Source: Phycisphaeraceae bacterium
GTDB lineage: Bacteria > Planctomycetota > Phycisphaerae > Phycisphaerales > Phycisphaeraceae
Assembly (NCBI GenBank): GCA_028277745.1
Contig: JANQFR010000005.1
Location: 1-64,000 of the forward strand
Reading direction: 5' to 3'
Length of the DNA: 64,000 bases
Position numbers and translations under genes: made by a program. How positions within the stretch are numbered: position 1 is the first letter of the stretch; every line of letters starts with the position of its first letter. Positions 6,610 through 62,164 of this stretch are shown here, one piece after another. The notes beneath the pieces are model-generated. The model made no database searches. It was not told the DNA's origin and saw only the letters and a program-made list of their open reading frames with translations.

Positions 6610-6887
6610 ACCGCCCGTTCTGGAAATAATATGAAAGACGCGGGGGAAACAGCCTTGCAAGCGCCCACACCATCTAAAACCGCCTCCCCCTTGACCCCCC
6701 GCCCCGCGGTGGGGAAAATACTATTAGACAGATGGTTCAAGAAAGGAGGTGCCTCGACGCGTGAAACACATCAAGTGAGTGGGGAAATCGCCGAGCGTGC
6801 GCCGAGTACCGATTTCAGACCGTTATTATCATTTGTTTCCGATTCTTTATCAGGCCTCGCTCGGTTTTTCTATGCGCGGAGCACACG
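6610..6887 (+). other. Intergenic region before upp with a strong Shine-Dalgarno and five-codon ORF
   Basis: No convincing protein gene was found. A CCCC/GGGG stem-like stretch around 6702-6714 may end nfo transcription. AAAGGAGGT at 6742-6750 lies 10 bases before a GTG at 6761, but the frame stops after five codons (TGA at 6776). The remainder is comparatively AT-rich (6800-6870) and probably contains the upp promoter and 5' leader. The perfect ribosome-binding site without a gene could be a leader peptide or a degraded small ORF. Confidence 0.4.
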
Positions 6888-7547: not shown

Positions 7548-7661
7548 TACGGCCCAGCCGCCGCAACGCACCAAACGCCGGGTGATTCGCGTCGGCAGTG
7601 GCGCCACCACGTTTCATCTGACGCCACGTGTCCGCGGGGTGATTCGGACAGTCATCTCCTG

Positions 7662-7667
7662 TATAAT
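7662..7667 (+). promoter_or_regulatory. Candidate -10 element of the first sugar importer
   Basis: A consensus TATAAT preceded by TG lies about 70 bases before the binding-protein gene. No clear -35 is seen at normal spacing. Confidence 0.35.
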
Positions 7668-7738
7668 GCAGTGCTCACCTGATCGGTCTGGTCCGGGGCG
7701 GGGGAAGCCGATCTTAAGTCGAGGTTTTCAATCATCTT

Positions 7739-44073: not shown

Positions 44074-44101
44074 AACGGACACTCCGGGGCATTGAATCGA
44101 A

Positions 44102-47100: not shown

Positions 47101-48190
47101 GATTCTCAATCCCCAAGGCGTGCCCGTTGGCCGCAACGCTGCCGAACCAATTTTTGGCCTTGCCCTGTCCCTCGCCATCCTGATCAACGAGCGTTTCATC
47201 TCTTTCGCGGTCGCTCAACCGAGCGTTGACGTTGCGGTCAGCGATCCTGATGTCGGATAAACCCGCCTGTCTGTAATCGTCATCCGTCACCGGCAACCGT
47301 TTGAGCCGGCCGTTCGCGTCTTGTCTCTCGGCCACTGCAAAAGATTCGCCGCCGCTTAATTGTCCGGCTTGTTCAAAAAACTCGGTCACTTGCTCGACGG
47401 TCCGCCCGGTCTGCGATTCGATCAGCTTACGGGCTTCGTCTTTAGGCAGATATACAACGTGGTTGTCCTTGAACACGACGGAGACCCCGGGTTTATCACT
47501 GCTGAATCGCTCGAAGCCAGCGACAACTTCGGCGTTCAGGTCGTCCTGATCACCCAGGCTCGTGGCAACGTAAGAGCTGTTTTCATGAACCCATTGTTTT
47601 TTTTGCTGCGGGCTGTAGCTGTCGAAGTCGGCGGGGACCGAAGCGCTGTCGGAAGGCGAAAGCAGGTAGCCGGGGGCGATGTAGCTCTCGGCCACCAGCA
47701 CGCCGAGGTCGTCGGGGTAGCGCCCGTCGTTTTTCTGGGAGTACATCACCATGCCCTGGTGAATGCCGCGCAGCTGGGTGCTGCTTTGCATCTGCCGGGC
47801 GGTTCGCCGGGCCGCGCCGAGGCTTGGGAACAGCAACGCCGCCAGTACGCCGGCGAGCATCAGGCCCGCTGCCGCGGCGATGATCGGCTTCCCGATCCGC
47901 CATCTCCCCGTGCCGCGCAGAGGTTTCCCGAAAGGACTCGGGCCTCCGGCGGCGGAGGGTTCCTCGTTGAGTTTGTCGAGAACCGACGCCCGTCGGTCGG
48001 CGCTCAGGCACGGCGTATCGTCCGATTCGAATCCCTCACGCAGCAGATTGGCGAGAACGCGCATGTCTCCCAGCCGCTCGCTCAGTTGCGGGTCGGTCTT
48101 GAGGTAGTCCAAAAGCTGCGTCTTCGTCGGTTCGTCGAGCTCATTGAAGACCAGTTGGGCCAGCAGCATCTCCGCCTGTTCGCGGTTCAT
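44102..48190 (-). CDS. Membrane VWA protein with anti-sigma-like, pseudopilin-like and STN domains
   Basis: A 1362-residue mosaic. Residues 1-95 are a helical cytoplasmic part, placed like an anti-sigma domain. A membrane helix (about 102-122) runs into LLFPSLGAARRTARQMQSST and ends at VVFKDNHVVYLP, closely resembling the H-X9-DG pseudopilins. TPR-like helices lie near 440-510. An STN/secretin-type domain (about 700-790) has INFHENRLVSVVDYLRNTTG. A YfbK-type N-terminal region (NPWVMTRADRLSTFAIDVD) precedes a VWA domain with the MIDAS sequence Asp1015-SSGSM. A YfbK C-terminal region follows. Stops 46 bases from the sigma gene. Probably holds the sigma factor and senses envelope state (inference). 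Confidence 0.83.
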   Translation of the reverse strand: MNREQAEMLLAQLVFNELDEPTKTQLLDYLKTDPQLSERLGDMRVLANLLREGFESDDTPCLSADRRASVLDKLNEEPSAAGGPSPFGKPLRGTGRWRIGKPIIAAAAGLMLAGVLAALLFPSLGAARRTARQMQSSTQLRGIHQGMVMYSQKNDGRYPDDLGVLVAESYIAPGYLLSPSDSASVPADFDSYSPQQKKQWVHENSSYVATSLGDQDDLNAEVVAGFERFSSDKPGVSVVFKDNHVVYLPKDEARKLIESQTGRTVEQVTEFFEQAGQLSGGESFAVAERQDANGRLKRLPVTDDDYRQAGLSDIRIADRNVNARLSDRERDETLVDQDGEGQGKAKNWFGSVAANGHALGIENHSDLFDHPIAAMTPPASMPADQISNLQPVPDAMGYDVTVSVKPLPEITTRFAESSGARGAGGAKPQPTIEQMERRVLQELAESEASRRTDKAAQQLARAVELQRDQRYDDALDLVDQTLFVDPDNAPARHMRQLIENVQGARSEEQLVREKHLQTATPEPEEAPPHGDLIVTPTDWPQLTERRLGRSFKQQTQAYDVRDLLTQAPDRTDSRRFSLVDALSNTNSGGANAKEFGVGAGLFGDAGDDEEVESAESHREKQLIMLGALLRESIDDETTTEADGDDPPISIVDGRINIHTSPVNHEKIADLLRRLRGQESQTEAAGRAADRRVVLKLRDPVPINFHENRLVSVVDYLRNTTGANFFVNWTALEAAGVEMDTPITLQLNDAPAEQALRLVLKQVSHDFDPIAYSIADGVVTISTRQDLNRNRDLRVFDITGLLTQMAADDPDPEMTTPERIEGVLTLIQDSVGRQEDWAVYGGDTAEIRELGGRLIIRAPAEHLKQVDRLLETLRAGVGQRDKIEPQPESAPEPPVDEPQTQAPPLVAPPVNPWVMTRADRLSTFAIDVDTASYAIARRSIAQGHLPPRHTVRMEEFINAFDYNYPTGRDARQTFTVHVAAGPSPYRPELTLLKIGVRGKVIGRDQLKPAHLVFVIDSSGSMDTEDRLPLVQQSLGMLLDQLGEHDRVSVIAYGTGANLLAENWPADEKRRDLDTVIQSIQCHGSTNLMSGIELGYQVARRHFTPGGVNRVILCSDGVANVGPADAEQVLAHAAAYRDHGVTFTSVGFGAGSYDDRLLEQLANRGDGSYLFVDSVEEAKRLFVDDLAATLPTIARDVKIQVAFDPLCVRRYRLIGYENRDIADVNFRNDAVDAGEVGSGQSATALYELELLAAQDAEGGPRDMGTVYVRHENPQTGQVQEITGRLPAVASHTHTASSDPRFHLAASAAQFAELLRGSPHAQNGNFAEVVRVMEEVSAALPLDAQARNLLELARQAQGLPPAPSP

Positions 48191-48235
48191 GGTTGTTTTT
48201 CTCGCTGTCGCCTCTGAACTGGGGGGAGGCGGGGT

Positions 48236-48838
48236 TCAGATCGCTCCGTTGTTTTTCAGTCTTTGCGTCAATTCCGTCATGGCTTTATTCAGCCGGTGGG
48301 CCACGCTGCCGGGGGTCGACTCGGTCACTTTGGCGATCTGGCGGATAGACAAGCCCTCGACGAGCTTCAGCACCAGCGCTTCTCGCTGTTCCCGCGGCAG
48401 CCGGCGAACCATGCGCATCGCGTAGTCCACCAGGTCCCGTCGCTCAAGGTCCATCAGCGCTTCGCCCGGGTCGGACGTCTCAGCCCTTGAGGTTTGCTGC
48501 AGGTGTTGTTGGCCGCGGCGAAGTCGGGACCGCTTGCGTAAGACATCCATCGCCAAGTTGTGCGTCACCCGGTAAAGCCAAGTGGACAGGTGCCGGATGT
48601 CACGGGCTCGGTCGGTGTCGCGGTAGCGGTGAAGGCGGAGGAATGCTTCCTGGACGACGTCCTGGGCCTCATCACCGCTTGTGCCGACCAACTGGCGGGC
48701 GTAGCGTAGCAGCGGCCCTTCAAACCGGTCGACCACCTGCTCAAAACTGTCGGCCAACGCGGGCGCCGCAGCGCTCAGGCCCGGCCGGGCGTCACTCCCG
48801 ATCCCGCCGACCTCCTGTGATTCACACGCCTCATCCAT
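48236..48838 (-). CDS. ECF-type RNA polymerase sigma factor
   Basis: A 200-residue sigma-70 family protein. Region 2 is visible as LLRYARQLVGTSGDEAQDVVQEAF with HLSTWLYRVTHNLAMDVLRK. Region 4 reads RLPREQREALVLKLVEGLSI with the helix-turn-helix IRQIAKVTESTPGSVAHRL. Regions 1.2 and 3 are absent, as in ECF factors. The N-terminal 25 residues are an unconserved extension. It is the first gene of a minus-strand operon with the membrane VWA protein and the giant secreted protein. A GCGAAC-N16-CGTCTCA promoter before it suggests autoregulation. Confidence 0.95.
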   Translation of the reverse strand: MDEACESQEVGGIGSDARPGLSAAAPALADSFEQVVDRFEGPLLRYARQLVGTSGDEAQDVVQEAFLRLHRYRDTDRARDIRHLSTWLYRVTHNLAMDVLRKRSRLRRGQQHLQQTSRAETSDPGEALMDLERRDLVDYAMRMVRRLPREQREALVLKLVEGLSIRQIAKVTESTPGSVAHRLNKAMTELTQRLKNNGAI

Positions 48839-48927: not shown

Positions 48928-49959
48928 GTGGTGTTAGTGACCCATCCAGAGGCGGCGGTTACGATTCTGGTCATGTTTCGGGCGATTGACAATCCAGAAA
49001 ACCATGTAAGCAATGTCCCGAAGCCCGGGGTTGCACCTCAAGGGGACTTGGGCGGCCGCCCGGTAGAAGCCGAGGCGTACCTGGGGCTGCTTGACGGCAC
49101 CGACCGTATGGTCGCCGAATGTTGCCTCTGGTGGCGTCATACCCCGATATTCCGCGGCGGGCGGTGCGGCTGTATCGGGCGTTTTTACGCCGAGACCCAG
49201 GAGGCCTGTCAAGCGTTACTCCAGCATGCCGTCGATCGGCTCAAGCGGGAGCGTTGCCATGTGGCGATCGCACCCATCGACGGCAACACCTGGCGGCCGT
49301 ACCGATTTATGACAACTTCAGACGGTCGGCCAACGTTTCTCTTCGAACCCGCCAATCCGCCGGAATGGCCCCGGTGGCATATGGCGTCGGGATTTGAGCC
49401 GATCGCGGATTACTACTCGGCCGCGGTTGACGATTTGACCCATCGCGAGGACCGTCTTACGCGGGTCTGCGATCGGCTCGACCGGCAGGGCGTGCGTATC
49501 CGGAACCTGGACCTTGACAGATTTGATCAGGAGTTAAGATCGCTGCACAACCTGAGTGTCGAAACCTTTCAGAACAATTTCCTCTACACGCCGATCGAAC
49601 AGGGCCGGTTCCTGTCGATGTACCGGCCGATTCGTGAGATGCTCCTGCCGGAGTTGGTGCTGTTGGCCGAAGCCGAGGGTGAGCTGGTGGGGTTTGTGTT
49701 CGGCGTGCCCGATCTTGCTCAGGCGCAGCGAGGCCGCCCGGTGGACACCGTGATCGTCAAAACCGTCGCGGCCCTGCCGGGCAGGGCTTGGGCGGGGCTT
49801 GGTCACCTGCTCGTTGAGCGGTGTCACCTCGCGGCGCACAAGGCTGGCTATCGCCGCGCGATTCATGCGTTGATGCACGAATCGAACAAATCCATGAACC
49901 TGTCCGCCCGATACGGCAAACCGTTTCGTCGATATGCACTCTACGCCCGGTCACTTTGA
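48928..49959 (+). CDS. GNAT-like acyltransferase, first gene of the lipid operon
   Basis: A protein of up to 343 residues. GTG 48928 gives the longest form; ATG 48973 (MFRAIDNPENH) is an alternative and neither has a strong ribosome-binding site. The segments VAIAPIDGNTWRPYRF and FEPANPPEWPRWHMASGFEP resemble a GNAT acyltransferase subgroup. ELVLLAEAEGELVGFVFGVPDL, then GLGHLLVERCHLAAHKAGYR, match the acyl-CoA-binding strands and helix. The donor and acceptor are unknown. It precedes the OleC-like gene by 2 bases and is divergent from the sigma operon. An amide-forming step in lipid head-group or acyl modification is possible (inference). Confidence 0.75.
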   Translation: MVLVTHPEAAVTILVMFRAIDNPENHVSNVPKPGVAPQGDLGGRPVEAEAYLGLLDGTDRMVAECCLWWRHTPIFRGGRCGCIGRFYAETQEACQALLQHAVDRLKRERCHVAIAPIDGNTWRPYRFMTTSDGRPTFLFEPANPPEWPRWHMASGFEPIADYYSAAVDDLTHREDRLTRVCDRLDRQGVRIRNLDLDRFDQELRSLHNLSVETFQNNFLYTPIEQGRFLSMYRPIREMLLPELVLLAEAEGELVGFVFGVPDLAQAQRGRPVDTVIVKTVAALPGRAWAGLGHLLVERCHLAAHKAGYRRAIHALMHESNKSMNLSARYGKPFRRYALYARSL

Positions 49960-49961
49960 CC

Positions 49962-51509
49962 ATGAACATCGCCACCACCTTGCTTCAGCAGGCTGCCGAC
50001 CGTCCGGATCAACCGGCAATCATTGAGGCCACACGATGGGGGGATCTGCGGATCACCTTTGCGGAACTGGATCTCGCGTCGGCGCTGCTGGCCGACCGGT
50101 TGGTGCGGCGGGGCGTGGAGCCCGGGCAACGCGTGCTCGTGATGTTGGGGATGTCAATCAATCTGTACGTGGCGCTTGCGGCGGTGCTCCGAGCGGGGAT
50201 GGTCGCGATGTTCATCGACCCGTCCGCGGGCCGCGGCCACCTTAAGGCGTGCTGCCGCGCGGCGCCGCCGGATGTTTTGCTCGGGACGTGGAAGGCGCAG
50301 TTGCTGCGTGTCGTGCATGGATGTCTCCGGTGTGTGCCGGGCGTGGTTTATCCCACCCTGTTTGGACCTCCCCGTACCGAACTGCGAAACCCGTCATGCG
50401 AGGTCGTTCCGTGCGGCGCGGAGGCGCCGGCCCTGCTCACGTTCACCAGTGGCAGCACGGCAACGCCCAAAGCCGCGGTGCGGACCCACGGCCTGCTCAA
50501 GGCGCAGCAGACGGCGCTCACCGAAGCGATCGATCTGCAGGCCGGTGAACTGGACTTGGCGACGCTGCCTGTTTTCGTGTTGGCCAACCTCGCGGCGGGG
50601 GTTACCAGCCTGATCGCCGACGCCGACCTGAGACGTCCCGGGAACATCGACGCCGGTCCTGTCCTGAACCAAATTGACAAGCACGCTCCAACACGGTGTG
50701 CCGCGTCGCCCGCGTTTTTTCAAAGGCTTGTCGAAGTCTGCGAACGCGAGCATCGATCCCTCGGTTCATTGCAACAGGTGTTTACGGGCGGCGCCCCGGT
50801 TTTCCCCGATCTGTTGGAACGACTGGCGCGCGTCATGCCCGATGGCGCCCCTTCCGTGGTGTACGGCTCAACAGAAGCCGAGCCGATTTCGCACGCACGG
50901 TGGACCGACATCACCCCCTCCGACCACGCAGCCATGGCCCGGGGGCGTGGGTTGCTGGTCGGGCTCCCGTCGCCACGGATTCAGGTACGGGTGGTCGATC
51001 CTGACCGGCTGCCCGCAGGCGTCATGAGCCCGGCTCTGCTGTCCAGCCTGTGTTGCGGCCCGAGCGAGCCGGGCGAGATCCTGGTCACAGGCGACCACGT
51101 CCTTAAAGGCTATCTCCATCCACGTGATGACCTTGAAACCAAGCTCCGCATCGGCGACACCGTGTGGCACCGCACCGGCGACTGCGGTTATCTTGATGAT
51201 CGCGGGCGGCTGTGGCTGCTGGGCAGGGTCGGCGCCCGGATTATCGATGGCCGCGGGGTGCTGTTTCCGTTTGCGGTCGAGTGCGCGGCGAGACAGGTCC
51301 GCGGCGTTCGACGCGCGGCGCTGTGCGAGCGCGGCGGCAAACGGGTCCTGTGCGTCGAAGCCGACAGCCCGGAGAGTGTTGACCAGGTGCGCGAACGGTT
51401 CGGTGATCAGATCGACACGGTCGTTCCACTCGATCATATCCCTCTCGATCGTCGGCATAACGCCAAGGTGAACTACCCCGAACTCAGACGGATGCTGGAC
51501 AACACCTGA
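49962..51509 (+). CDS. OleC-like AMP-dependent acyl ligase
   Basis: A 515-residue adenylate-forming enzyme, start chosen at 49962 (MNIATTLLQQAADRPDQPAI). The AMP-binding P-loop reads LTFTSGSTATPKAAVRTHG, the A5-type motif VVYGSTEAEPI, and the hinge region HRTGDCGYLDDRGRLW. The C-terminus IPLDRRHNAKVNYPEL matches the RHNAKI ending of OleC proteins, which form beta-lactones from 2-alkyl-3-hydroxy acids in olefin synthesis. No OleA, OleB or OleD genes are here, so it may instead activate a fatty or hydroxy acid as acyl-AMP or CoA ester. Second gene of the seven-gene operon. Confidence 0.82.
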   Translation: MNIATTLLQQAADRPDQPAIIEATRWGDLRITFAELDLASALLADRLVRRGVEPGQRVLVMLGMSINLYVALAAVLRAGMVAMFIDPSAGRGHLKACCRAAPPDVLLGTWKAQLLRVVHGCLRCVPGVVYPTLFGPPRTELRNPSCEVVPCGAEAPALLTFTSGSTATPKAAVRTHGLLKAQQTALTEAIDLQAGELDLATLPVFVLANLAAGVTSLIADADLRRPGNIDAGPVLNQIDKHAPTRCAASPAFFQRLVEVCEREHRSLGSLQQVFTGGAPVFPDLLERLARVMPDGAPSVVYGSTEAEPISHARWTDITPSDHAAMARGRGLLVGLPSPRIQVRVVDPDRLPAGVMSPALLSSLCCGPSEPGEILVTGDHVLKGYLHPRDDLETKLRIGDTVWHRTGDCGYLDDRGRLWLLGRVGARIIDGRGVLFPFAVECAARQVRGVRRAALCERGGKRVLCVEADSPESVDQVRERFGDQIDTVVPLDHIPLDRRHNAKVNYPELRRMLDNT

Positions 51510-51525
51510 CGTATGGAGAACCGCA

Positions 51526-52830
51526 GTGCCCACAGACCACAACCGAGCCCGCCGATATCTCGATCGGCTTCTCGCCGGCCAGGATGAGCAAGCGTTAGGC
51601 GAGCGATTGACCCCAAGCGAAGACGACCTGTCTCCCCGCCTGTCGGCGGCCACACGCATCACCCCCGAGTCGGTCGACAAGCGGTGGGGGGCGATCGGGG
51701 GCGGCAGCGACGCCCGATCACGCCTTTTCGACGAGCAGACGCGTCACGAAGCGGAGTTGTACAGCCGGAATATCGAGAATTTCATCGGGACCGCGAAGAT
51801 CCCGCTCGGCGTCGCCGGCCCGCTTCGTGTGCGCGGGCTTTTCGCCCAGGGAGATTATTACGTGCCGATGGCGACCACCGAAGCGGCATTGACCGCGTCG
51901 TGCACCCGGGGCGCCCAGACGATCTCGCGCGCCGGCGGGGCCCGGGCCGCCGTCATTAACGAGGGCGTCGGCCGATCCCCCGTGTTTGCGTTTTCGACGT
52001 TCGCCGACGCCGGCCGATTCGTGGCGTGGCTCACCGACCACGTTCAGGCGATCCGTGAATCGGCCGAGGCGACCACCCGTTACGGCAAACTCGTCGATGT
52101 GCGCGTGTCGATCCAGGGCAACCACGTCTACCTGCTGCTCGAATATCATGTCGGCGACGCGGCGGGTCAGAACATGGTCACCATCGCCACCGATGCCGCC
52201 TGCCGCTGGATCGAGGCCAACAGTCCGGTACAGCCCGTGCACTGGTTCGTCGAGGCGAACATGAGCGGCGACAAGAAGGCGACCCATCAATCCTTCCTCG
52301 GCGTGCGCGGAAAGAAGGTCATCGCCGAAGTCACGCTGCCCGCCCGGCTTGTGCAAAGCCGATTCCGCGCTGGCGTCGACCGGATGGTGACGTATTACCA
52401 CATGTCGTCATTGGGGGGAGTGATGAGCGGCGCGTTGGGCGTTCAGGGGCATTACGCCAACGCCCTGGCGGCGGTGTTTCTCGCGTGCGGGCAGGACGTC
52501 GCGTGCGTGGCCGAGGCGGCCTGCGGGATCACGCGGCTTGAGGCCGTCGAAGACGGCGCGCTCTATGCGTCGATCACGATGCCCAACCTCATTGTCGGCA
52601 CGGTCGGGGGCGGCGCCGGCCTGCCGTCGGCCCGGGCCTGCTTCGACATCCTCAAGCTGCCGGAGACCAACCCCGCCAACGCCTTCGCCGAGGTGTGCGC
52701 TGCGCTGGTGTTGGCCGGCGAGCTCTCGATCATCGGCGCCTTGGCGGCCGGCGACTTTGCCGCCGCGCATCAACGCATGGCCAGGGGAGAGCCGACCCCT
52801 CCGCCGTCCAGCGAGGGGGGGCATGGTTAA
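51526..52830 (+). CDS. HMG-CoA reductase, class I-like
   Basis: A 434-residue enzyme starting at GTG 51526, with GGAG eight bases upstream. The class I catalytic set is complete: Glu119 in TTEAALTAS, Lys250-Lys251 in GDKKATH, Asp324 in ACGQDVA and His415 in AAHQRM. ENFIGTAKIPLGVAGPL and VGTVGGGAGLPSA are family signatures, and DAAGQNMVT replaces the usual DAMGMNM. The family reduces HMG-CoA to mevalonate with NADPH. No other mevalonate-pathway gene is in the window, and planctomycetes mostly use the MEP route. The last 8 bases overlap the UbiA gene. An altered acyl-CoA substrate is possible. Confidence 0.92.
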   Translation: MPTDHNRARRYLDRLLAGQDEQALGERLTPSEDDLSPRLSAATRITPESVDKRWGAIGGGSDARSRLFDEQTRHEAELYSRNIENFIGTAKIPLGVAGPLRVRGLFAQGDYYVPMATTEAALTASCTRGAQTISRAGGARAAVINEGVGRSPVFAFSTFADAGRFVAWLTDHVQAIRESAEATTRYGKLVDVRVSIQGNHVYLLLEYHVGDAAGQNMVTIATDAACRWIEANSPVQPVHWFVEANMSGDKKATHQSFLGVRGKKVIAEVTLPARLVQSRFRAGVDRMVTYYHMSSLGGVMSGALGVQGHYANALAAVFLACGQDVACVAEAACGITRLEAVEDGALYASITMPNLIVGTVGGGAGLPSARACFDILKLPETNPANAFAEVCAALVLAGELSIIGALAAGDFAAAHQRMARGEPTPPPSSEGGHG

Positions 52831-53737
52831 TCGCTGGTGGGTCTATCAACGCGAACGTTTCCCACTCGTCGCGCACGGGCTGCTGATCCTGGCGTTCAGC
52901 TTTTCCGCTGTAGCGGTTTCGTCGATGTTGCGCGGCCGCTTCTCTGTCCCGCCATGGCCGTCGCTACTGGTCGCGTTTGTGACCTGTTTCCTGTTTTTCC
53001 TGCAATTGCGTATCGCAGATGAATTCAAGGATTTCGATGAGGACGCCAGGTATCGGCCTTACCGGCCGGTCCCTCGCGGGCTGGTCTCGCTGCGCGAGCT
53101 GGGCGCGGTGTTCGTCCTGGCCTGCGTGGTTCAAGCCGGGTTGGCGTGGTGGCTCGATCCGGACCTGATCCTGCTGTTGTTGATCACATGGGCGTACCTG
53201 GCGTTCATGAGCAAGGAGTTTTTTGTTCGTGATTTCCTGAAAAATCGGCCCGTGCTGTACATGGTCAGTCATATGTTCATCATGCCGCTGATCGATCTTT
53301 ACGCGACCGGCACAGACTGGCTCGTCGCGGGCGCCGGGCCGCCGCGAGGCTTGCTCTGGTTCCTGTTGGCGAGTTTTTTTAACGGGATGGTGATTGAGAT
53401 CGGGCGAAAGGTCCGCAGACCCGAGGACGAGGAGGAGGGCGTCGCCACGTATTCCGTCGTCTGGGGCCGGGCGTGCGCCGTGGCGGCGTGGCTGGGCGTC
53501 ATGCTGGCCACGGCCGGGTTTGCGCTGCTGGCCGCGATGCATATCGGCGTGCCGTTTCAGATCGCCATCATCCTGGGCGGCGCCCTCGCCGCGGCGGCGG
53601 TTCTGGGGCTGTGGTTCCTGAGGGCGCCGGCTCCTGGCCGGGGTCGATGGATCGAGCATATGTCGGGCCTCTGGACCTTGATCCTTTACACTGCTCTTGG
53701 CGTTCTGCCTTTGGTCTGGAGAGCAACCGTTGGCTGA
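52823..53737 (+). CDS. UbiA-family prenyltransferase
   Basis: A 304-residue membrane protein with about eight helices. The first Asp-rich site, DEFKDFDED (residues 66-74) followed by YRPYRPVPRGLVSLRE, corresponds to the NDxxDxxxD diphosphate-Mg motif of UbiA enzymes. The second site is IEIGRKVRRPEDEEEG (about residues 190-206). Such enzymes attach polyprenyl groups from prenyl diphosphate to aromatic or lipid acceptors. The gene overlaps both neighbours by 8 bases. Near HMG-CoA reductase and a CTP-dependent lipid kinase, a prenyl-lipid product is suggested. Confidence 0.88.
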   Translation: MVNRWWVYQRERFPLVAHGLLILAFSFSAVAVSSMLRGRFSVPPWPSLLVAFVTCFLFFLQLRIADEFKDFDEDARYRPYRPVPRGLVSLRELGAVFVLACVVQAGLAWWLDPDLILLLLITWAYLAFMSKEFFVRDFLKNRPVLYMVSHMFIMPLIDLYATGTDWLVAGAGPPRGLLWFLLASFFNGMVIEIGRKVRRPEDEEEGVATYSVVWGRACAVAAWLGVMLATAGFALLAAMHIGVPFQIAIILGGALAAAAVLGLWFLRAPAPGRGRWIEHMSGLWTLILYTALGVLPLVWRATVG

Positions 53738-56420
53738 TCAACCGCTGATCCTGACGCCCGGCGACACCCCCGACGTCATGATGATGGGCGGCAAAGCCGC
53801 GGCGTTGGCGCGGCTTGCCCGGCACGACCTGCCCGTTCCGCCGTGGGTTGTTCTGACCCCGGCCGCCTTCTGGGCGAGTCTCGGCGAGGATCGACGCACG
53901 CCACTCGAACAATCGGACAATGACGCCGAACGGTCAGCAATCGCCGCCAACGCTTCGCCCTCGCCCGGCGTCCTGGCCTTGCTTGAGCAAAAGATGGCGG
54001 ACGCGGGATTGACCGCCGGGCCGTTTGCCGTGCGCTCCAGCGCGACCCAGGAAGACGCGGCGGGCCACTCGTTTGCCGGCCAGTTCGAGAGCTATCTTTC
54101 AGTCTCCGCAGATCAACTGGCGCAGCGCATCGCACAGGTTTGGCAGAGCGCATTTAGCCCGCGTGTGCTGGCTTATCATCGTGAGCACGGCTTATCCAGT
54201 TGCCCCCAAGCTCCTGCGGTGCTCATCCAGCAACAGGTCCGGGCCGACACGGCGGGCGTCGCGTTCGGGGCCGACCCCATCACCGGACGACGACAAGTCG
54301 CCGTGGTCTCGGCGGTCTACGGCCTGGGTACGGCGCTGGTGGGCGGCGAAGCGGACGCGGACACCTGGCGGGTCGATCGGGACGGCCGGATCACTGAACG
54401 ACATATAGCGTCCAAGCCGACGCAGCACATCGCCAGCGGCGACAGCCGCGAAGGGGTCCGGTCTGAACCGGTGGCGGAATCGATGCGTGATCGTCCGGTT
54501 CTGGACGACCGCCAGGTCCAGCGCATCGCCGATCTGGTCCGCCAAACGACCCGGTTCGGCGGGCGCCCGCAGGATATTGAGTGGGCGTTTGAGGGCGGCG
54601 ACCTGTGGCTGCTGCAGTCGCGCCCGATCACATCCCTCTCCGAAACGCCCGATCCGGATGGCGATGTCACGCTGTGGGACAACGCAAACATCGCGGAAAG
54701 CTACAGCGGCGTCACCACGCCGCTGACTTTTTCTTTTGCCCGCCGCGCCTACGAGGGTGTCTACCGGGAGTTCTGTCTGATCCTGAACGTGCCGCGATCG
54801 ACCGTTGATCAACACGCCAACACCTTCCGCAACATGCTTGGCCTGATCCGGGGCCGGGTGTATTACAACTTATTGAATTGGTATCGCGTCCTCGCGCTGT
54901 TGCCCGGCTTCGCCTTCAATCGCCGCTTTATGGAACAGATGATGGGAGTGCGTGAAGGGCTGCCCGAGTCCTTCCTCGAACAGTTTCAGACCACCCGGCG
55001 AGGGGCGAAAGCGGCGGACGGGGCCCGGCTACTGGCCGCCGCGGCGTCGTTAGTCTGGCGGCATCTGACGCTCGGCCGATCGATCCGGCGGTTCTACCGC
55101 CGACTCGATGCGGCGCTGGCGCCGCCGGACCCGCCGCTGGACCGCCAGCGGCTCGACCAACTCGCCCAGACCTACCGCCAACTCGAGAGCTCACTGCTCA
55201 CCCGTTGGGACGCGCCGCTGGTGAACGATTTTCTGTCCATGATCTTCTTCGGCGTGCTCGCCCGCCTGACGTCGCGTTGGGGCGGCGAGGACGCGGATCA
55301 ACTGCACAACCATCTCCTGTGCGCCGAGGGCGGCATCGTCAGTGCCGAACCGGCCCGGCTGATCCGCGAGATGGCCGAACTGGCCAGGGAGGATGACGCG
55401 TTGGTTGCTTCGCTGTGTGAGGACGACGCCGAACCGGCTCAACGCCGCGTGTCGCAGCACGCCGCGCTTCACACACGGTTTCGCCAATACATTGAACGGT
55501 TCGGCGATCGCTGCCTGGAGGAGCTTAAGCTGGAGTCGCTGACGCTCGCTGACGATCCGACGCCGTTGCTGCGGTCCATCGGATACGCGGCCCGCCGCGC
55601 GCCGAACGATGCCGAACCCGGTGAACTTGACCGTCGACTGCGCAGCGAAGCCGAATCCGCTATGACTTTGGCCCTGCGTCGCCGCCCCCTGAAGCGATGG
55701 ATATTTCGGTGGGTGCTCCGGAACGCCCGGGCCCGGGTGCGTGACCGCGAGAATCTGCGCTTTGAGCGCACCCGCTTATTCGGCCGGGTCCGCCGAATCT
55801 TTCTGGAGATGGGCGCCGGATTAACCGCCGAAGGGGGATTAGACCAACCGCGCGACGTCTTCTTTCTTGAGGTTGAAGAGCTCATCGGTTTTGTGGAAGG
55901 GACCACAACCTGCACGGATCTTCGCGGGCTGGTCCGTGTTCGGGCAACAGAGTTCGAAGGCTTTGCCGATCGGCCGGCCCCGGCGGACCGGTTTGAGACG
56001 TACGGCGCGGTCCCGATCGGCAACCGCTTTGAAACCGACGCGCCTGCGGACGATTCGCCGGAAGGCGTCGACGTTTTGCAGGGGCTGGGCTGTTGCCCCG
56101 GGGTCGTTCGCGGCCGCGTCCGTGTGGTAACCGACCCGCGCGGGGTCGAGCTCGAGGCTGGGTCGATCCTGGCGGCCCGGCGCACCGACCCGGGCTGGAT
56201 CATGCTCTTCCCCGCCGCGGCCGGCGTGCTGGTTGAGCACGGCAGCCTCCTGTCGCACTCGGCGATCGTGGCGCGAGAACTGGGCGTGCCGACGATCGTC
56301 GCGATCCCTGGTCTGTTGCAGCGCCTCGAGAACGGACAAGAGATCGAGATGGATGGTCGGACCGGCGTGGTGCGCCTCATCACCGACCTGCCCGGCCAGG
56401 GAGGCGACGCGAACCCGTGA
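53730..56420 (+). CDS. Rifampin-phosphotransferase-like / PEP-synthase-related phosphotransferase
   Basis: An 896-residue enzyme, start chosen at TTG 53730 with GGAGAG upstream; the stop of the UbiA gene overlaps it by 8 bases. The N-terminal ATP-grasp domain has MMMGGKAAALARLARHDLPV, RSSATQEDAAGHSFAGQFES and LLQSRPIT. The C-terminal swivelling domain has GSLLSHSAIVARELGVPTIV with the phospho-accepting His843. The C-terminal PEP/pyruvate barrel of true PEP synthases is missing, and an approximately 450-residue middle domain replaces it, as in rifampin phosphotransferase. The middle domain probably sets the acceptor. In this operon a lipid or prenyl alcohol or phosphate is a candidate. Confidence 0.85.
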   Translation: MADQPLILTPGDTPDVMMMGGKAAALARLARHDLPVPPWVVLTPAAFWASLGEDRRTPLEQSDNDAERSAIAANASPSPGVLALLEQKMADAGLTAGPFAVRSSATQEDAAGHSFAGQFESYLSVSADQLAQRIAQVWQSAFSPRVLAYHREHGLSSCPQAPAVLIQQQVRADTAGVAFGADPITGRRQVAVVSAVYGLGTALVGGEADADTWRVDRDGRITERHIASKPTQHIASGDSREGVRSEPVAESMRDRPVLDDRQVQRIADLVRQTTRFGGRPQDIEWAFEGGDLWLLQSRPITSLSETPDPDGDVTLWDNANIAESYSGVTTPLTFSFARRAYEGVYREFCLILNVPRSTVDQHANTFRNMLGLIRGRVYYNLLNWYRVLALLPGFAFNRRFMEQMMGVREGLPESFLEQFQTTRRGAKAADGARLLAAAASLVWRHLTLGRSIRRFYRRLDAALAPPDPPLDRQRLDQLAQTYRQLESSLLTRWDAPLVNDFLSMIFFGVLARLTSRWGGEDADQLHNHLLCAEGGIVSAEPARLIREMAELAREDDALVASLCEDDAEPAQRRVSQHAALHTRFRQYIERFGDRCLEELKLESLTLADDPTPLLRSIGYAARRAPNDAEPGELDRRLRSEAESAMTLALRRRPLKRWIFRWVLRNARARVRDRENLRFERTRLFGRVRRIFLEMGAGLTAEGGLDQPRDVFFLEVEELIGFVEGTTTCTDLRGLVRVRATEFEGFADRPAPADRFETYGAVPIGNRFETDAPADDSPEGVDVLQGLGCCPGVVRGRVRVVTDPRGVELEAGSILAARRTDPGWIMLFPAAAGVLVEHGSLLSHSAIVARELGVPTIVAIPGLLQRLENGQEIEMDGRTGVVRLITDLPGQGGDANP

Positions 56421-57514
56421 CCACCGAGGCCGCCCAGCACACCGACTTTTCACACATCCGCTATGCGCAGGTGTGGGAGGACGCCGACGTCCTGCTCGAT
56501 GCGCTCGACATCCAGCCGGGTGATACGTGTCTGTCCATCGCGTCGGCTGGCGACAACGCGTTGGCCATGCTCACGCGCGACCCCGCGAGGGTCATCGCCG
56601 TCGATCTGAACCCCGCGCAGCTGGCCTGCGTTCGCCTGCGCGTCGCCGCGTATCGCAGGCTCGAACACGGCCAGTTGCTGGAGCTGATCGGCTCGCGCCC
56701 CAGCGACCGGCGAAGCGAGCTCTACCGCCTTTGCCGCCCCGAGCTGGATGACGCGACGCGGGCCTTCTGGGACAGCCGCCCGGCCGCCGTGGAGGCGGGG
56801 ATCGGCGCCGCGGGGAAGTTCGAACGCTATTTCGCCGCTTTCCGCAAGCACATCCTGCCGCTGATCCACTCGCGTCAACGCGTGGCTGAGTTGCTCCGTT
56901 ATCGAGCCCCCGACGCTCGGCGAACGTTCTACGACCGGCGGTGGAACAACCTGCGCTGGCGACTGCTGTTTCGTGTTTTTTTCTCACGTTGGGTCATGGG
57001 CCGGCTCGGCCGAGATCCGGCTTTTTTTCGGTATGTCGAAGGGTCGGTTGCGCAACGCATCCTGGCCCGCGCGGAGTACGCCTTGGCGACGCTCGACCCG
57101 GCCGGGAACCCTTATCTCGGTTGGATCCTCACCGGCGAACATGGGCAGGCCTTGCCGTTGGCGCTCCGCCCCGAAGCGTTCGAGCCCATCCGCAGCCGTC
57201 TCGATCGGCTCGAGCTTCGCCAGGCCACGGTCGAGGATGCTCTCGACGCTTGGTCGGGAGCCCCGATCGCCCGATTCAATCTCAGCGACATCTTCGAGTA
57301 CATGTCAGCAAGCAACACCGAAGCGATCCTCGGCCGGTGCGTTGACCACGGCCTCGCCGGCGGCCGGCTCGTTTACTGGAACATGCTCGTTCCCAGGAGC
57401 CGCCCGGACACCCTCGCGGATCGGCTTCATCCCCGTGAAAACATCGCTGGGCGTCTGTTTCTTCGGGATAAGGCGTTTTTCTATAGCCGCCTGGTGGTTG
57501 AGGAGATCGCTTGA
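56417..57514 (+). CDS. BtaA-like (DUF3419) S-adenosylmethionine 3-amino-3-carboxypropyltransferase
   Basis: A 365-residue protein starting at GTG 56417 within the previous stop (GTGA). The SAM-binding segment is CLSIASAGDNALAMLTRDPA with AVDLNPAQLACVRLR. RYAQVWEDADVL at the start, and NLSDIFEYMSAS with GGRLVYWNMLVPR in the C-terminal half, are typical of BtaA/DUF3419. BtaA moves the aminocarboxypropyl group of SAM to diacylglycerol in betaine-lipid synthesis. The partner N-methyltransferase BtaB is absent here, so the product may be a homoserine-ether lipid rather than a betaine lipid. Confidence 0.85.
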   Translation: MTTEAAQHTDFSHIRYAQVWEDADVLLDALDIQPGDTCLSIASAGDNALAMLTRDPARVIAVDLNPAQLACVRLRVAAYRRLEHGQLLELIGSRPSDRRSELYRLCRPELDDATRAFWDSRPAAVEAGIGAAGKFERYFAAFRKHILPLIHSRQRVAELLRYRAPDARRTFYDRRWNNLRWRLLFRVFFSRWVMGRLGRDPAFFRYVEGSVAQRILARAEYALATLDPAGNPYLGWILTGEHGQALPLALRPEAFEPIRSRLDRLELRQATVEDALDAWSGAPIARFNLSDIFEYMSASNTEAILGRCVDHGLAGGRLVYWNMLVPRSRPDTLADRLHPRENIAGRLFLRDKAFFYSRLVVEEIA

Positions 57515-58872
57515 TTCTCGACCTGGTCAAGATGGCGTTGGTGCTGATCGAGCTTGGCGTGCTGATCGCCGCGGTCAAGCTGATCGAGCGCCGTTTTCGT
57601 CCGCACCCGGAGGTCTGTCGGAAGCTGCTTCACGTTGTGCTGGGCTTGACCGTGCTGACGTTTCCGTGGCTGTTTGACCAGGCCTGGCCGGTGGTGGCGT
57701 TGAGCGTCATCGCGGCGGCGGGCCTGGCGGCGCTGCGTTTCGCCCGCGGGCGGCTCGCTCAACTGACGACGGTCATCGCCGCCGTGAGACGGCCGAGCTT
57801 CGGTGAGTTGTACTACCCGCTGGCCGTGGGCGTGCTGTGGTTGCTCAGCGGCGGCGATGTGTTGCTGTTCGGCGTGCCCATGCTCGTGCTGACCCTCGCG
57901 GACGCGGTGGCGGCCCTGATCGGGGTTCGCTACGGGTCGGTGCATTACGACACGCTTGACGGCCGGAAGAGCGCCGAGGGATCGGCGGCGTTCCTGGTCG
58001 TCACGTTTCTCAGCGTTCACATCCCCGTCCTCCTGATGACCCAGACCGGTCGTGCCGAGTCGCTGCTGCTGGCGCTGATTGTCGCCTTGCTGGTGATGCT
58101 GCTGGAATCGATCGCCTGGCACGGCCTGGACAACCTGTTTGTGCCTTTGGGGACATTCGCCTTTCTTTCGATGTACCTCGACGCCGACGCGGCTGCGCTG
58201 GCGTGGCGTTCGCTCGCGACCATCGGGTTTGTGTTTTTCATGCTCGCCTGGCGGCGCCGATCGTCACTCGATGATGCGGCCCTGCTCGCCGGCGCGCTCT
58301 ACGGCTACGCCGCCTTGATGCTGGGCGGTTGGCTCTGGCTGTACCCGCCGGTCATGGTCTTTGCCTTTCACTCTGTCCTGTGGGCGCGCGACGAGCATTC
58401 CAACGCTCATCACGTCGGCGCGGTTATCGCGGTTACGCTCGTCGGTTTTCTCTGCCTGATCCTCCACGCCCGCGGGCCTGATTCTGTTTGGTTGTGGCCT
58501 TACGCCACCAGCTTCGCCGCGCACCTCGCCATGGTCGGGGCCTCTTATCTGCTCTGGCAGCGCCCGCTGCTGCGGTGGGCCAGCGCCTGGCGCGTGGCGT
58601 TGGCGGCGTTGGGAGGCTGGGGGGTGGTGCTGTTGCCTCTTCTTTTCAACCCGGTGCTCCGCACGCCCGCAGACATCCCGCCCGTCGAACTCTGGCGGCT
58701 GGTGAGCCTGACGATCGGCGGCGTCGCGTTGGCCGCGGTTGGCTTTACCGTCCTGATGCCCAGGCTCTACGCGGACGCCGCCCCGCGCTGGCTGCCTGAC
58801 GCCACGGGGCTGGGGCTCGGCCTGATCGCCGCTGTCTCGGCTTGGATCGGCGCCGCGACCTTCAGCCTTTGA
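57511..58872 (+). CDS. DGK1/VTE5-like CTP-dependent lipid kinase, membrane protein
   Basis: A 453-residue polytopic protein, start TTG 57511 overlapping the BtaA-like stop (TTGA). RKLLHVVLGLTVLTFPWLF and TLADAVAALIGVRYG are shared with phytol, dolichol and diacylglycerol kinases. DGRKSAEGSAAFLVV (from residue 150) is their nucleotide-site motif. Those enzymes phosphorylate prenols or diacylglycerol with CTP. The usual family length is about 220-300 residues; here about 200 extra C-terminal residues carry more helices of unknown role. Last gene of the operon; its end overlaps the convergent permease gene by 11 bases. Confidence 0.82.
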   Translation: MILDLVKMALVLIELGVLIAAVKLIERRFRPHPEVCRKLLHVVLGLTVLTFPWLFDQAWPVVALSVIAAAGLAALRFARGRLAQLTTVIAAVRRPSFGELYYPLAVGVLWLLSGGDVLLFGVPMLVLTLADAVAALIGVRYGSVHYDTLDGRKSAEGSAAFLVVTFLSVHIPVLLMTQTGRAESLLLALIVALLVMLLESIAWHGLDNLFVPLGTFAFLSMYLDADAAALAWRSLATIGFVFFMLAWRRRSSLDDAALLAGALYGYAALMLGGWLWLYPPVMVFAFHSVLWARDEHSNAHHVGAVIAVTLVGFLCLILHARGPDSVWLWPYATSFAAHLAMVGASYLLWQRPLLRWASAWRVALAALGGWGVVLLPLLFNPVLRTPADIPPVELWRLVSLTIGGVALAAVGFTVLMPRLYADAAPRWLPDATGLGLGLIAAVSAWIGAATFSL

Positions 58873-59746
58873 CGGCGCCCGCGGTGAGGCCCGCGATGAA
58901 CTCCCGTTGCAGCAGCAGGAACAGGACGAGCACCGGCGCGATCGAGATGACGGTGCCGGCCATCAGCAGGCCGTAGTCCTGTGAATATACGCCGCGGAGC
59001 TGGGCGATAGCGACCGACAGCGGCAGCTTTTCAGGGCTCTGCAGGACGATCTGCGGCCAGATGAAGTTGTTCCAGGTTCCCAGGTAAGTAATCAGAACGA
59101 ACGCCCCGATCATCGGCCTCACCAGCGGCAGGCCGATCGAGACGAACAGGCGCAGCTCGCCGCACCCATCGATGCGGCCGGCTTCGAGCAACTGCGGCGG
59201 GAGGCTGCTGAGGAACGCCTGCCGGAACAGGAAGACGCCGAACGCCGGCGCCGCGGCGGGCAGGATCAGGCCGGTGTAAGTGTCGAGCAAGCCCAGGAAG
59301 TACAGCAACTGATACGACGGGGCGAGCATCAGCGCCGCGGGGATGATCAGCGCGAAGAGCACGAGGTTGGTGACGAACCGCCGGCCGGGGAAGCGGATCA
59401 TCGCCAGCGCGTAGCCGCCCATCGCGGCGCCGAGCGTCGCGAGGATGCTGGTGGTGGAGGCGAGGAACACCGAGTTGACGATGTTGTTGGTGAAGTCGAA
59501 CTCGGAGATCAGCCGGGTGTAGTTGGCCGAGGTGATGCGGCCCCACGCGACGCCAAAGACCCCCTCGCCGGCGGGGAGGAACAGCGATCCGAAGAAGTCT
59601 TCGCCGGTCTTGAGCGAGGAGGCGAGCAGGTAAGCGAAAGGCGTGAGCACGATCGCCGCCGAGGCCGCCAGCATCGCGTAGGTCAGGCATGCGGCCGAGA
59701 GTTTGGCGAGGGTCCGGCGAGGCGTGATGGAGAGGGTTGGCGTCAT
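58862..59746 (-). CDS. Sugar ABC transporter permease, MalG type
   Basis: A 294-residue, six-helix permease. The EAA loop reads LEAGRIDGCGELRLFVSIGL and the protein ends FIAGLTAGAVKG. It starts 3 bases after the MalF-like gene and is the last gene of the third importer operon. The 3' end runs 11 bases into the convergent kinase gene. Confidence 0.93.
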   Translation of the reverse strand: MTPTLSITPRRTLAKLSAACLTYAMLAASAAIVLTPFAYLLASSLKTGEDFFGSLFLPAGEGVFGVAWGRITSANYTRLISEFDFTNNIVNSVFLASTTSILATLGAAMGGYALAMIRFPGRRFVTNLVLFALIIPAALMLAPSYQLLYFLGLLDTYTGLILPAAAPAFGVFLFRQAFLSSLPPQLLEAGRIDGCGELRLFVSIGLPLVRPMIGAFVLITYLGTWNNFIWPQIVLQSPEKLPLSVAIAQLRGVYSQDYGLLMAGTVISIAPVLVLFLLLQREFIAGLTAGAVKG

Positions 59747-59749
59747 GGG

Positions 59750-60625
59750 TCACCGTTCGTCGAGAGCCGAGACATAGCGTTGGGCGACGGCGAAGCCGCC
59801 CAGCAGGATGGCGATGGTCCAGCCGATGGCGCTGGCGTAGCCCAGATCGCCGGCGTCGAAGCCGGCCTGGTAGAGGTACATGACGACCGTCAGCCCCTGG
59901 TTGTCCGGCCCACCGCCGCCCAGCAGGATGTAGGGCAGCTCGAACAACTGGAAGCTGCCGATCAGCGACAGCAGCACGAGGAACGAGCCGACCGGCCGGA
60001 TGGCGGGGAGGGTGACGTGCAGGAACCGCCGCAACGGTCCCGCCCCGTCAACGGTCGCCGCCTCGAGCAGGTCGCGGCTGACGTTCTGCAACGCCGCCAG
60101 GAAGAACACCATGTTGAACCCCGCGTAAAGCCACAGCGCCGCGATGATCAGCGCCGGCATGACGTATTGCTGAAGCCACGGGAACTCCGGGTCGAACCCG
60201 GCGACGGCGTGCAGGGTGACGTTGAGCAGGCCGGTCCGCTTCTCGAAGATCAGCCCGAACAGCACCGCGACAAACACCAGCCCCACCAGCGCCGGGGAAA
60301 AGAAGATCAGCCGGAAGAACGCCCGGCCGCGCACGTCCGGGCGGTTGAGCAGCATTGCCAGGCCCAACGCGATCGGCAGCTGGATGCACACCGAAGCCAG
60401 CGCGAACACAGCCGTGTTCCAGAACGCCTTCCAGAACAGCCGGTCGACCGCGATTGACTTGAAATTGTCCAGCCCAACGTAGCGGGTGATGCTCGGCCCG
60501 TGCGTCTGCTGGAACGCCAGCCAAAGCGATTGCACCAGCGGGTAGATCAGGAACACCACGAACAGCGCCAGGAAGGGCGTCAGGAAGAGGTAGGCGGCGC
60601 GGCTCTGGGCGGCGTGATGGTTCAT
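59750..60625 (-). CDS. Sugar ABC transporter permease, MalF type
   Basis: A 291-residue permease of normal length. The ATG at 60625 overlaps the binding-protein stop (ATGA) and gives the usual N-terminus MNHHAAQSRAAYLFLTPFL; an earlier in-frame start at 60667 is unlikely. The EAA loop is LEAATVDGAGPLRRFLHVTL, and ELPYILLGGGGPDNQGLTV is a family segment. Partner of the MalG-type protein downstream. Confidence 0.92.
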   Translation of the reverse strand: MNHHAAQSRAAYLFLTPFLALFVVFLIYPLVQSLWLAFQQTHGPSITRYVGLDNFKSIAVDRLFWKAFWNTAVFALASVCIQLPIALGLAMLLNRPDVRGRAFFRLIFFSPALVGLVFVAVLFGLIFEKRTGLLNVTLHAVAGFDPEFPWLQQYVMPALIIAALWLYAGFNMVFFLAALQNVSRDLLEAATVDGAGPLRRFLHVTLPAIRPVGSFLVLLSLIGSFQLFELPYILLGGGGPDNQGLTVVMYLYQAGFDAGDLGYASAIGWTIAILLGGFAVAQRYVSALDER

Positions 60626-62016
60626 GGCGACCGCTCCCGCACGAACACGTTGCGGTTCATGTGCCACCGCACCCGTGCTTCAGCCGCCTCAAGGAGTTGT
60701 TTCGCGACCGGCTGCAACGCGGCCGCGTCGTAGACGCCGGTCTCCTCGGCGTGCCGTTTGAGTTGGATCACCACGTCCTGGAGCCCCGCCTTGGCGATCG
60801 TGTCGAACGGCGAGCTGACGCGGCGCGGCACATCCGGCGCCTGCTCCAGGTAAAGCCGCCCGGTGCGCTGACCGCCAAAGTACGCCCGCGGCGCCGCGTA
60901 CCAGCCGCGGTCCCACAACGCCCGGACCGGCGAGATGATGCCCGCCCGCTCGTACAGCTCGCGGGCCAGCGGCTCGCTGAGGTAAAGCTCCTTGGCGACC
61001 GCCCAGGCCTGCTCGGGGTCGGGCGTGGTCTTGGGGATCCCGATCATCGTGCCGCCCCACACGCTGGTGCGCCGCCCGCCGGGCTCCCACGCCGGCAACG
61101 GCATCAGCCGCAGCTTGCCTTCGAGCTGCGGCAGGTCGCTCTCCCACACGCTGGTGAGCCAGTCCGACATGAGCGAACACACGACATAGCCTTCCAGACG
61201 CAGCCGATTGCCCGACGCACTGAACTCCGGGGCGTCCCCCGCGATCCGGCCGGGCCCGGTGAGCCACGTCGTGATCTCCGCGAGCGTCGCGGCGTTGACG
61301 TCGCTGGCGAGCGTTGGGACGCCGTCGATATCGAACAGCCCGCCGCCGGCTTGAAGCAGCAGCGCCTCGATCTGGTCGAGGTGGGTTTCCGAGAGGCTCA
61401 GCGGATAACGGTCGGGCCGACCGTCGCCGTCCAGGTCGACCACCATCGCCCGCATGGCTTCTTTGAACGAAGCCCACGTGGTCAGCGACGTGATGTCGAT
61501 CCCCGCCTCCTCGACCAGGTCGGCGCGGTAACACAACAGCACCGGGTGGACATCATGAGGCAGCCCAAACACCCGGCCCGACACGGTCCAGGGCGCGAAC
61601 GACGGCTCGTTGAACCGGTCGTACAACCCCTCGGCGTGGAGCCGATCGGTCAGGTCGATGAGGCCGATCCCGTCGATCGGCCCGCTGAACACCTGTGAGG
61701 CCATCGACCGTTCGATCTCCACCAGGTCGGCCATGTGGGTGCCGGCGTGCATGGACGCAATCAGCCGGCGCGGCAGCGCGTCGGCGCTCAACAGCGCGAC
61801 GTCCAGGCGGTGGCCGCCCGCTTCCCGCCAACGGTCGGCGACGGGGACGTACATCTGATAGTGCGTCCTGGCGAACACCCAGAAGCTCAGGCCGTCGCGC
61901 TGCGCCACCGGGCGGACCGCGACCCACGCGGCGGACGCCAGCATCAGCCCGGCGATCACCACCACCCCCGGCGATATGGGCGAGCCTGAACGGAGATATT
62001 GTCTTAAGCGAATCAT
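60622..62016 (-). CDS. Sugar ABC transporter substrate-binding protein (family 1)
   Basis: A 464-residue binding protein with an N-terminal hydrophobic helix (PGVVVIAGLMLASAAWVAV) that may stay as an anchor. Family segments include FGLPHDVHPVLLCYRADLV, AGIDITSLTTWASFKEAM and GGTMIGIPKTTPDPEQAWAV. It heads a binding protein, MalF, MalG operon. A divergent LacI gene with an operator over the -35 lies 148 bases upstream. The ligand is unknown; no glycosidase accompanies it within the window. Confidence 0.9.
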   Translation of the reverse strand: MIRLRQYLRSGSPISPGVVVIAGLMLASAAWVAVRPVAQRDGLSFWVFARTHYQMYVPVADRWREAGGHRLDVALLSADALPRRLIASMHAGTHMADLVEIERSMASQVFSGPIDGIGLIDLTDRLHAEGLYDRFNEPSFAPWTVSGRVFGLPHDVHPVLLCYRADLVEEAGIDITSLTTWASFKEAMRAMVVDLDGDGRPDRYPLSLSETHLDQIEALLLQAGGGLFDIDGVPTLASDVNAATLAEITTWLTGPGRIAGDAPEFSASGNRLRLEGYVVCSLMSDWLTSVWESDLPQLEGKLRLMPLPAWEPGGRRTSVWGGTMIGIPKTTPDPEQAWAVAKELYLSEPLARELYERAGIISPVRALWDRGWYAAPRAYFGGQRTGRLYLEQAPDVPRRVSSPFDTIAKAGLQDVVIQLKRHAEETGVYDAAALQPVAKQLLEAAEARVRWHMNRNVFVRERSP

Positions 62017-62079
62017 TTTTCGTGACTTATAGATTTTGGATCCGTGCGATGCGAGAGACGGGCGACCGTTTCATTGATA

Positions 62080-62120
62080 ATTATGAGGCGGCGCTTGACA
62101 GATTGCAACCGGTTGCGCAA
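62080..62120. promoter_or_regulatory. Minus-strand promoter and LacI-type operator between importer and LacI gene
   Basis: For the importer, TTGCAA (62108-62103) and CATAAT (62085-62080) are 17 bases apart. The perfect palindrome GCAACCGGTTGC (62105-62116), with the central CG typical of LacI operators, overlaps this -35. On the other strand TTGACA (62095-62100) may be the -35 for the regulator gene. The same operator could thus control both directions. Confidence 0.6.
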
Positions 62121-62164
62121 GATGTGAGCGCTGAGCTATTCATTTTCTCGTTCCGGCGATCACC

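Follow-up and report, generated by a model that had tools for sequence, protein, structure and literature searches.

A seven-gene cassette shared across bacterial phyla, possibly for an undescribed amphiphilic metabolite

The locus and its conservation

The element considered here is a run of seven open reading frames (ORFs), g1 to g7, in a 64,000-nucleotide stretch of DNA (the window) from a Phycisphaeraceae bacterium (GenBank assembly GCA_028277745.1, contig JANQFR010000005.1), which spans almost all of its contig (C69) in a genome of 5.1 Mb. All seven lie on the plus strand at 48928-58872, with gaps of 2 and 16 bases and overlaps of 8, 8, 4 and 4 bases in the ORF list; the number, position, gaps and overlaps given in an earlier note on this DNA were reproduced exactly on re-checking. 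The gene upstream is divergent and that downstream convergent, and the operon therefore comprises exactly these seven genes (Table 1). For g1, an alternative ATG at 48973 is an equally or more likely start than the one at 48928. A scan for promoters and terminators returned no more sites than in shuffled sequence. The cassette is read, tentatively, as a horizontally spread and self-contained biosynthetic unit that makes an amphiphilic metabolite, lipid- or terpenoid-like and so far undescribed, the product being deduced from the enzyme families.

Conservation was examined using four g6 proteins as queries against 84,980 species genomes, the best 80 of at least 528 related stretches being taken further. 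Because g6 served as the seed and only its best matches were taken, the prevalence of the full set is lower among all relatives of its family, DUF3419. Three genomes of the same taxonomic order carry g6 orthologues at 60-67% identity; two of them hold all seven genes arranged as in the window, and the third (L017) holds g3 to g7 close to its contig start. The neighbours of g6 in most of the 80 loci are homologues of the other six genes, and all seven were found in 31 of the 45 loci having sufficient flank, arranged either as g1-g2-g3-g4-g5-g6-g7 (10 loci) or as g3-g4-g5-g6-g7-g1-g2 (21 loci), each order being a circular permutation of the other. Taken singly across these 45 loci, g5 and g4 were each present in 44, g1 in 41, g2 in 39, g7 in 37, and g3 in 34. 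Clustering of every ORF of the loci revealed no eighth conserved family, the remaining groups being shadow reading frames or local, and no transporter, resistance or regulatory gene recurred in the conserved neighbourhood.

Adjacent genes overlap or almost touch in the cassettes of relatives too, and the gene-distance matrices are correlated for all 21 pairs (r 0.46-0.80, with none of 200 permutations reaching as high), a correlation that was computed without a control gene and partly reflects shared ancestry, but is compatible with inheritance as a block. Conservation in relatives, on which the earlier note had staked its proposal, was thus checked directly, and the recurrence of the gene set across phyla leaves the proposal unrefuted on this count. 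The conservation of the set as a unit is firm. That unrelated genes were brought together by chance into a loose cluster has a negligible probability and is refuted by the same set and order across phyla, the overlapping genes, and the correlated divergence. Gene fusions were also considered as a clue to adjacent steps and proved uninformative, the only long ORFs holding pieces of two cassette genes being those of L028 (g4-g5) and L081 (g7 with a UbiA-like part).

Less closely related g6 homologues from Planctomycetota (34-43%) are mostly found in different gene contexts. Two such relatives (37-38%) were seen in L123 (1209-3691) and L124 (9046-10191), that of L123 having as neighbours one epimerase-like gene and another that may be lipid-kinase-like, as judged by eye.

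Table 1. Genes of the cassette and its immediate neighbours in the window.
Gene	Position	Strand	Assignment	Basis
g1	48928-49959	+	tandem-GNAT N-acyltransferase	ORF calls, AlphaFold2 model, fold match, relatives' Pfam
g2	49962-51509	+	acyl-AMP ligase, OleC/PRK09274-like	Pfam, NCBIfam, motifs
g3	51526-52830	+	HMGR-like acyl-thioester reductase (putative), altered substrate pocket	Pfam, residue alignment, tree
g4	52823-53737	+	UbiA-superfamily membrane prenyl/alkyl transferase	Pfam, motifs
g5	53730-56420	+	PEP-synthase/Rph/PigC-like ATP dikinase or ligase, 896 amino acids	Pfam, phospho-His site
g6	56417-57514	+	DUF3419 (BtaA-superfamily) SAM-dependent transferase, separate branch	Pfam, AlphaFold2, fold match
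g7	57511-58872	+	polytopic membrane protein, putative CTP-dependent lipid-alcohol kinase (DGK1/VTE5/VTE6-like)	motif pattern
sigma-factor-like gene	48236-48838	-	upstream of g1, divergent	
ABC-permease-like gene	58862-59746	-	downstream of g7, convergent	

Phylogenetic spread and variant cassettes

The 80 best loci fall in 16 named phyla according to their record titles, many of them being metagenome bins in which contigs can be misassigned. Methylomonas, Alkalilimnicola, Desulfobulbus, Brevibacillus, and several cyanobacteria are among the carriers in culture, with Methylomonas sp. SURF-1, Alkalilimnicola ehrlichii AK92, Desulfobulbus rhabdoformis DSM 8777, Dulcicalothrix desertica PCC 7102, and Roseinatronobacter sp. 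S2 as individual strains. A Roseinatronobacter plasmid carries the complete seven-gene set, with g3 spanning the record start; two members are annotated there as hypothetical and the rest by family name only. The g6 tree groups partially by phylum with several phyla mixed (25 label changes, where 15 would be the minimum), which suggests horizontal transfer. A system specific to planctomycetes, also considered, was rejected on the strength of the 16 phyla. Among the bins, L050 and L078 are titled Akkermansia muciniphila and L061 Opitutus sp.; the g6 genes of L050 and L061 are very similar, and at least one of these species labels therefore looks doubtful.

The broad phylogenetic range, anaerobes and phototrophs included, could also be accommodated by a cofactor or membrane redox carrier of the quinone type that has escaped recognition and is prenylated by g4, since quinone precursors are often prenylated by UbiA enzymes. 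Such a product is considered quite improbable, as ORF clustering returned no recurrent aromatic-ring enzyme, hydroxylase or redox partner, and carriers amount to only about 5% of the sampled Planctomycetota genomes (20 of 392 have a relative of g6 with an E value no worse than 1e-60).

Variant cassettes were encountered in two lineages. The verrucomicrobial loci L030, L050, L061, L069, and L084 form a single g6 clade in which neither the HMG-CoA reductase (HMGR) homologue nor g7 lies near g6; in their place, L084 (1085-13702) has a PigE-like class III aminotransferase, whose C-terminal half has no identified family, together with a second phosphoenolpyruvate (PEP)-synthase-like gene and a SnoaL-like gene, and L030 shows the same layout as judged from its ORF pattern. 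The cyanobacterial loci L064 (3257-5957) and L097 (3442-6159) likewise have no HMGR and g7; upstream of UbiA they carry three different ORFs and, as tested in L064, the first of these encodes a radical SAM/SPASM protein. These variants indicate a core with exchangeable modules, the core being formed by the ligase, GNAT, UbiA, dikinase and DUF3419 genes, whilst the HMGR-like gene and g7 are dispensable in some lineages. The modules around this core may tailor one building block.

The HMG-CoA reductase-like and DUF3419 enzymes

The product of g3 matches PF00368 (HMG-CoA_red) at 3.8e-113, and its best match among solved structures is the HMG-CoA reductase 6hr7. The earlier note had g3 yield mevalonate to feed prenyl supply, with the cassette making a prenylated homoserine (betaine-type) lipid. 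The fold of class I HMG-CoA reductase and its catalytic residues E559, K691, D767, and H866 (human numbering), which would be expected of such a role, are indeed present, being invariant in the alignment of 53 cassette proteins together with the HMG contacts R590, D690, K692, and N755. The remainder of the pocket differs: in all 53, the HMG-binding Ser684 is replaced by Glu at an ungapped position of the alignment, the HMG-binding Lys735 by Met, Val, Ala, Ile or Phe, Met657 by Gln, and Ala751 by Gly. Lys735 forms a salt bridge to the HMG carboxylate in HMG-CoA reductase (PMC9500038). Other HMGRs from the same phylum retain both Ser684 and Lys735, and the cassette proteins form one clade separate from the canonical HMGRs, with a Shimodaira-Hasegawa-like approximate likelihood ratio (SH-aLRT) support of 99 and long branches.

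The genomic background is equally at odds with a mevalonate route. Over the family cut-offs, HMG-CoA synthase and mevalonate-diphosphate decarboxylase were each found in none of 30 carrier genomes (the latter with one weaker match) and mevalonate kinase in one, with 29 lacking it, whereas DXR of the methylerythritol phosphate (MEP) pathway is present in 24 of the 26 examined. Any HMGR at all is missing from 8 of the 30, the cassette loci of which still hold the other core genes, in full or for the most part. Genes may be missed in draft genomes, but the absences were judged too consistent to be explained in this way. Given the changed pocket residues and the want of a mevalonate pathway in the carriers, g3 most likely reduces an acyl thioester other than HMG-CoA. 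The statement that it yields mevalonate could not be upheld, and mevalonate supply for isoprenoids was rejected as the function of the cassette. Taken with the missing BtaB gene discussed below, the betaine-lipid scheme as a whole retains very little probability.

Two more HMGR-like proteins without Lys735 were noted outside any cassette (L136/L165 in G196:C296 and L138/L166 in G450:C94). In the tree they form the sister group of the cassette clade, and the non-canonical HMGR group thus extends beyond the cassette; their neighbourhoods (L165, L166) offered no functional lead.

BtaA, of the DUF3419 family, transfers the aminocarboxypropyl group of S-adenosylmethionine (SAM) to diacylglycerol to form diacylglycerol-O-homoserine (PMC10685587). 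The g6 protein belongs to the same Pfam family (PF11899, 1.1e-68, 232.6 bits against a cut-off of 28.2), and its AlphaFold2 model, with a predicted local distance difference test (pLDDT) score of 93, matches nothing more specific in a fold search than the class I SAM-transferase fold, with helical additions; no solved structure was found by sequence search. It differs from the BtaA-BtaB pathway to the betaine lipid diacylglyceryl-trimethylhomoserine (DGTS) in that ORF clustering revealed no BtaB or other methyltransferase among the conserved cassette neighbours, and in that g6 is only 24-30% identical to the BtaA-type proteins of related genomes, with many fixed positions of its branch differing from theirs in the alignment. 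The genome of the window itself encodes a canonical BtaA elsewhere (L020, G000:C24:60000-75000; 6413-7825, plus strand) with an adjacent BtaB-like methyltransferase gene (7866-8510, plus strand). Owing to this second site and the fixed residue differences, g6 is probably not the betaine lipid enzyme of this organism, and membership of the betaine lipid pathway was rejected at residue level; the label 'BtaA-like' given to it earlier is sound at the level of the family, within which g6 belongs to a separate branch. By analogy with BtaA, the best guess is that g6 moves the aminocarboxypropyl group of SAM to another acceptor.

Remaining enzymes and candidate product

The family names proposed earlier for g2 to g6 were borne out by Pfam, and that of g1 as a GNAT protein by its relatives and its predicted structure, with g7 as the doubtful member. 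The window g1 protein gave a weak GNAT match in the Pfam search; among 53 relatives, 51 match Acetyltransf_1 and 9 match NMT. Sequence search found no solved structure for it, and its AlphaFold2 model (pLDDT 91) has two GNAT domains, aligning with the tandem GNAT protein 7q3a at a VIA-align Z of 22.5 and a root-mean-square deviation of 3.5 over 286 residues. The model also matches N-myristoyltransferases on fold comparison, a resemblance that would fit a long acyl donor. The g2 protein carries the AMP-binding domain PF00501 (1.3e-52) and reaches 362 bits with NF006754, under its cut-off of 478; the adenylation motifs and the lysine of a C-terminal RHNAK motif are kept in 55 relatives. Against the models of OleC beta-lactone synthetases it falls below cut-off, with 208 of 900 bits (NF045786) and 199 of 850 (NF045785). 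The two genes are neighbours in nearly all loci, and because they stay adjacent whichever the operon order, coupled acyl activation and N-acylation is suggested for the pair. Acyl ligase and GNAT pairs of the SidI/SidF type or the bacterial ceramide type couple acyl activation with N-acyl transfer; the cassette differs from these, likened here by description only, in that g1 is a tandem GNAT. From the family assignments, an N-acylation pair alongside a SAM-dependent g6 is plausible.

The g4 protein is a UbiA homologue (PF01040, 5.7e-18, 65.6 bits against a cut-off of 34.2) with a conserved variant of the first Asp-rich motif, DExxDxxxD. The g5 protein combines PPDK_N (2.7e-60) and PEP-utilizers (2.2e-21) matches in Pfam and shares with Rph and PigC/RedH an ATP-binding domain, a large middle domain, and a phospho-His domain, the phospho-His site LSHSA being conserved and aligning with the MTHGA site in 5fbs, a homologue from the PDB; it differs from them in scoring under every curated family cut-off (Rph 286 of 999, PigC 292 of 1300, and RedH 329 of 1350 bits). 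Four motifs of g7 (ExxRKxxH..G, DAxAAxxGxxYG, KSxEGS, and GxDNxxxP) are conserved in 65 relatives, DUF92 was matched weakly in 8 of 54 (best 0.0022), and sequence search found no solved structure. The motif resemblance weakly suggests a DGK1/VTE5/VTE6-like lipid-alcohol kinase dependent on cytidine triphosphate (CTP). In the tocopherol pathway, lipid-alcohol phosphorylation by VTE5 and VTE6 is followed by a UbiA-type transfer by VTE2; the cassette may similarly phosphorylate a lipid alcohol ahead of a UbiA-type transfer, but it differs in the weakness of the kinase call for g7, the lack of an enzyme for an aromatic acceptor, and the additional ligase, GNAT and DUF3419 genes.

In the best reading of these assignments, the product would comprise a prenyl or alkyl part, an aminocarboxypropyl group derived from SAM, and an N-acyl group. 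A carboxylic acid would be activated by g2 to an acyl-AMP or acyl-CoA, and g6 would take the 3-amino-3-carboxypropyl group from SAM and attach it to a nucleophile such as a hydroxyl, so providing the amine onto which g1 would place an acyl group. An acyl thioester other than HMG-CoA would be reduced by g3 to an alcohol, to be phosphorylated by g7 and g5, or else g5 would drive a PigC-like condensation with ATP, and g4 would attach the prenyl or alkyl chain, once activated, to an acceptor. Retention of the product in the membrane is favoured because no conserved transporter accompanies the cassette.

Several points weigh against this scheme. The second Asp motif of g4 is altered, with Arg or Lys in an Asp position, and the window g7 has no Pfam or NCBIfam match and no significant family match at all. 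The many family-fixed positions at which g6 departs from BtaA mean that aminocarboxypropyl transfer is not assured, and g6 could methylate or carry out other SAM chemistry. As for g3, the cassette proteins show a one-residue alignment gap immediately before position 735, and 40 of the 53 have Arg or Lys at 734 (His in the window), which may partly keep the charge lost with Lys735. The order of the steps and the acceptor are guesses.

A serious rival to the membrane lipid, although unlikely on balance, is a diffusible specialised metabolite, such as a terpenoid alkaloid or acyl amino acid, the two halves of which would be joined by the dikinase using ATP in the manner of PigC/RedH. The patchy distribution and the plasmid copy would suit it, as would the scores of g5 with RedH and PigC, far under the cut-offs as they are, and the five verrucomicrobial relatives without HMGR and g7 near g6, L084 having in addition its PigE-like aminotransferase and second PEP-synthase-like gene. 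The want of any recurrent transporter, resistance or regulatory gene speaks for the membrane-retained amphiphile instead, and g1, g4, and g7 indicate lipid substrates. The fuller proposition that the cassette makes a new, horizontally spread class of bacterial lipid or lipid-like compound, in which an enzyme of the HMGR fold takes another thioester, a DUF3419 enzyme takes a new acceptor, and a ligase-reductase-kinase route leads from a carboxylic acid to the prenyl or alkyl donor of the UbiA enzyme, is held to be rather doubtful.

No published description of the seven-gene set was found in the open-access literature searched, in agreement with the earlier remark that no pathway with this combination was known. 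Each enzyme of the set is drawn from a known family or superfamily. Its wide conservation and sharing between phyla imply that the product is worth retaining and handing on, and no named pathway is known to comprise the set. Were the product to be identified, a further metabolite class would be credited to bacteria from cyanobacteria to Brevibacillus, and the existence of cultured carriers makes the question directly testable. The g3 enzyme provides a test case for substrate change in the much-studied HMGR fold, the target of statins, and it follows that an HMGR match alone is unsafe evidence for a mevalonate pathway in bacteria.

The flanks of the operon were inspected by eye. Divergent from it on the minus strand (44102-48838) lie the sigma-factor-like gene and then a gene for a 1362-residue protein with a von Willebrand-like part, followed at 37543-44223 on the same strand by a repetitive-looking ORF of 2226 amino acids, probably for a large surface or membrane-anchored protein. 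On the other side, a minus-strand group of two ABC-permease-like genes and one solute-binding-like gene, together with a LacI-type regulator in divergent orientation (58862-63202), resembles an ordinary sugar uptake unit.

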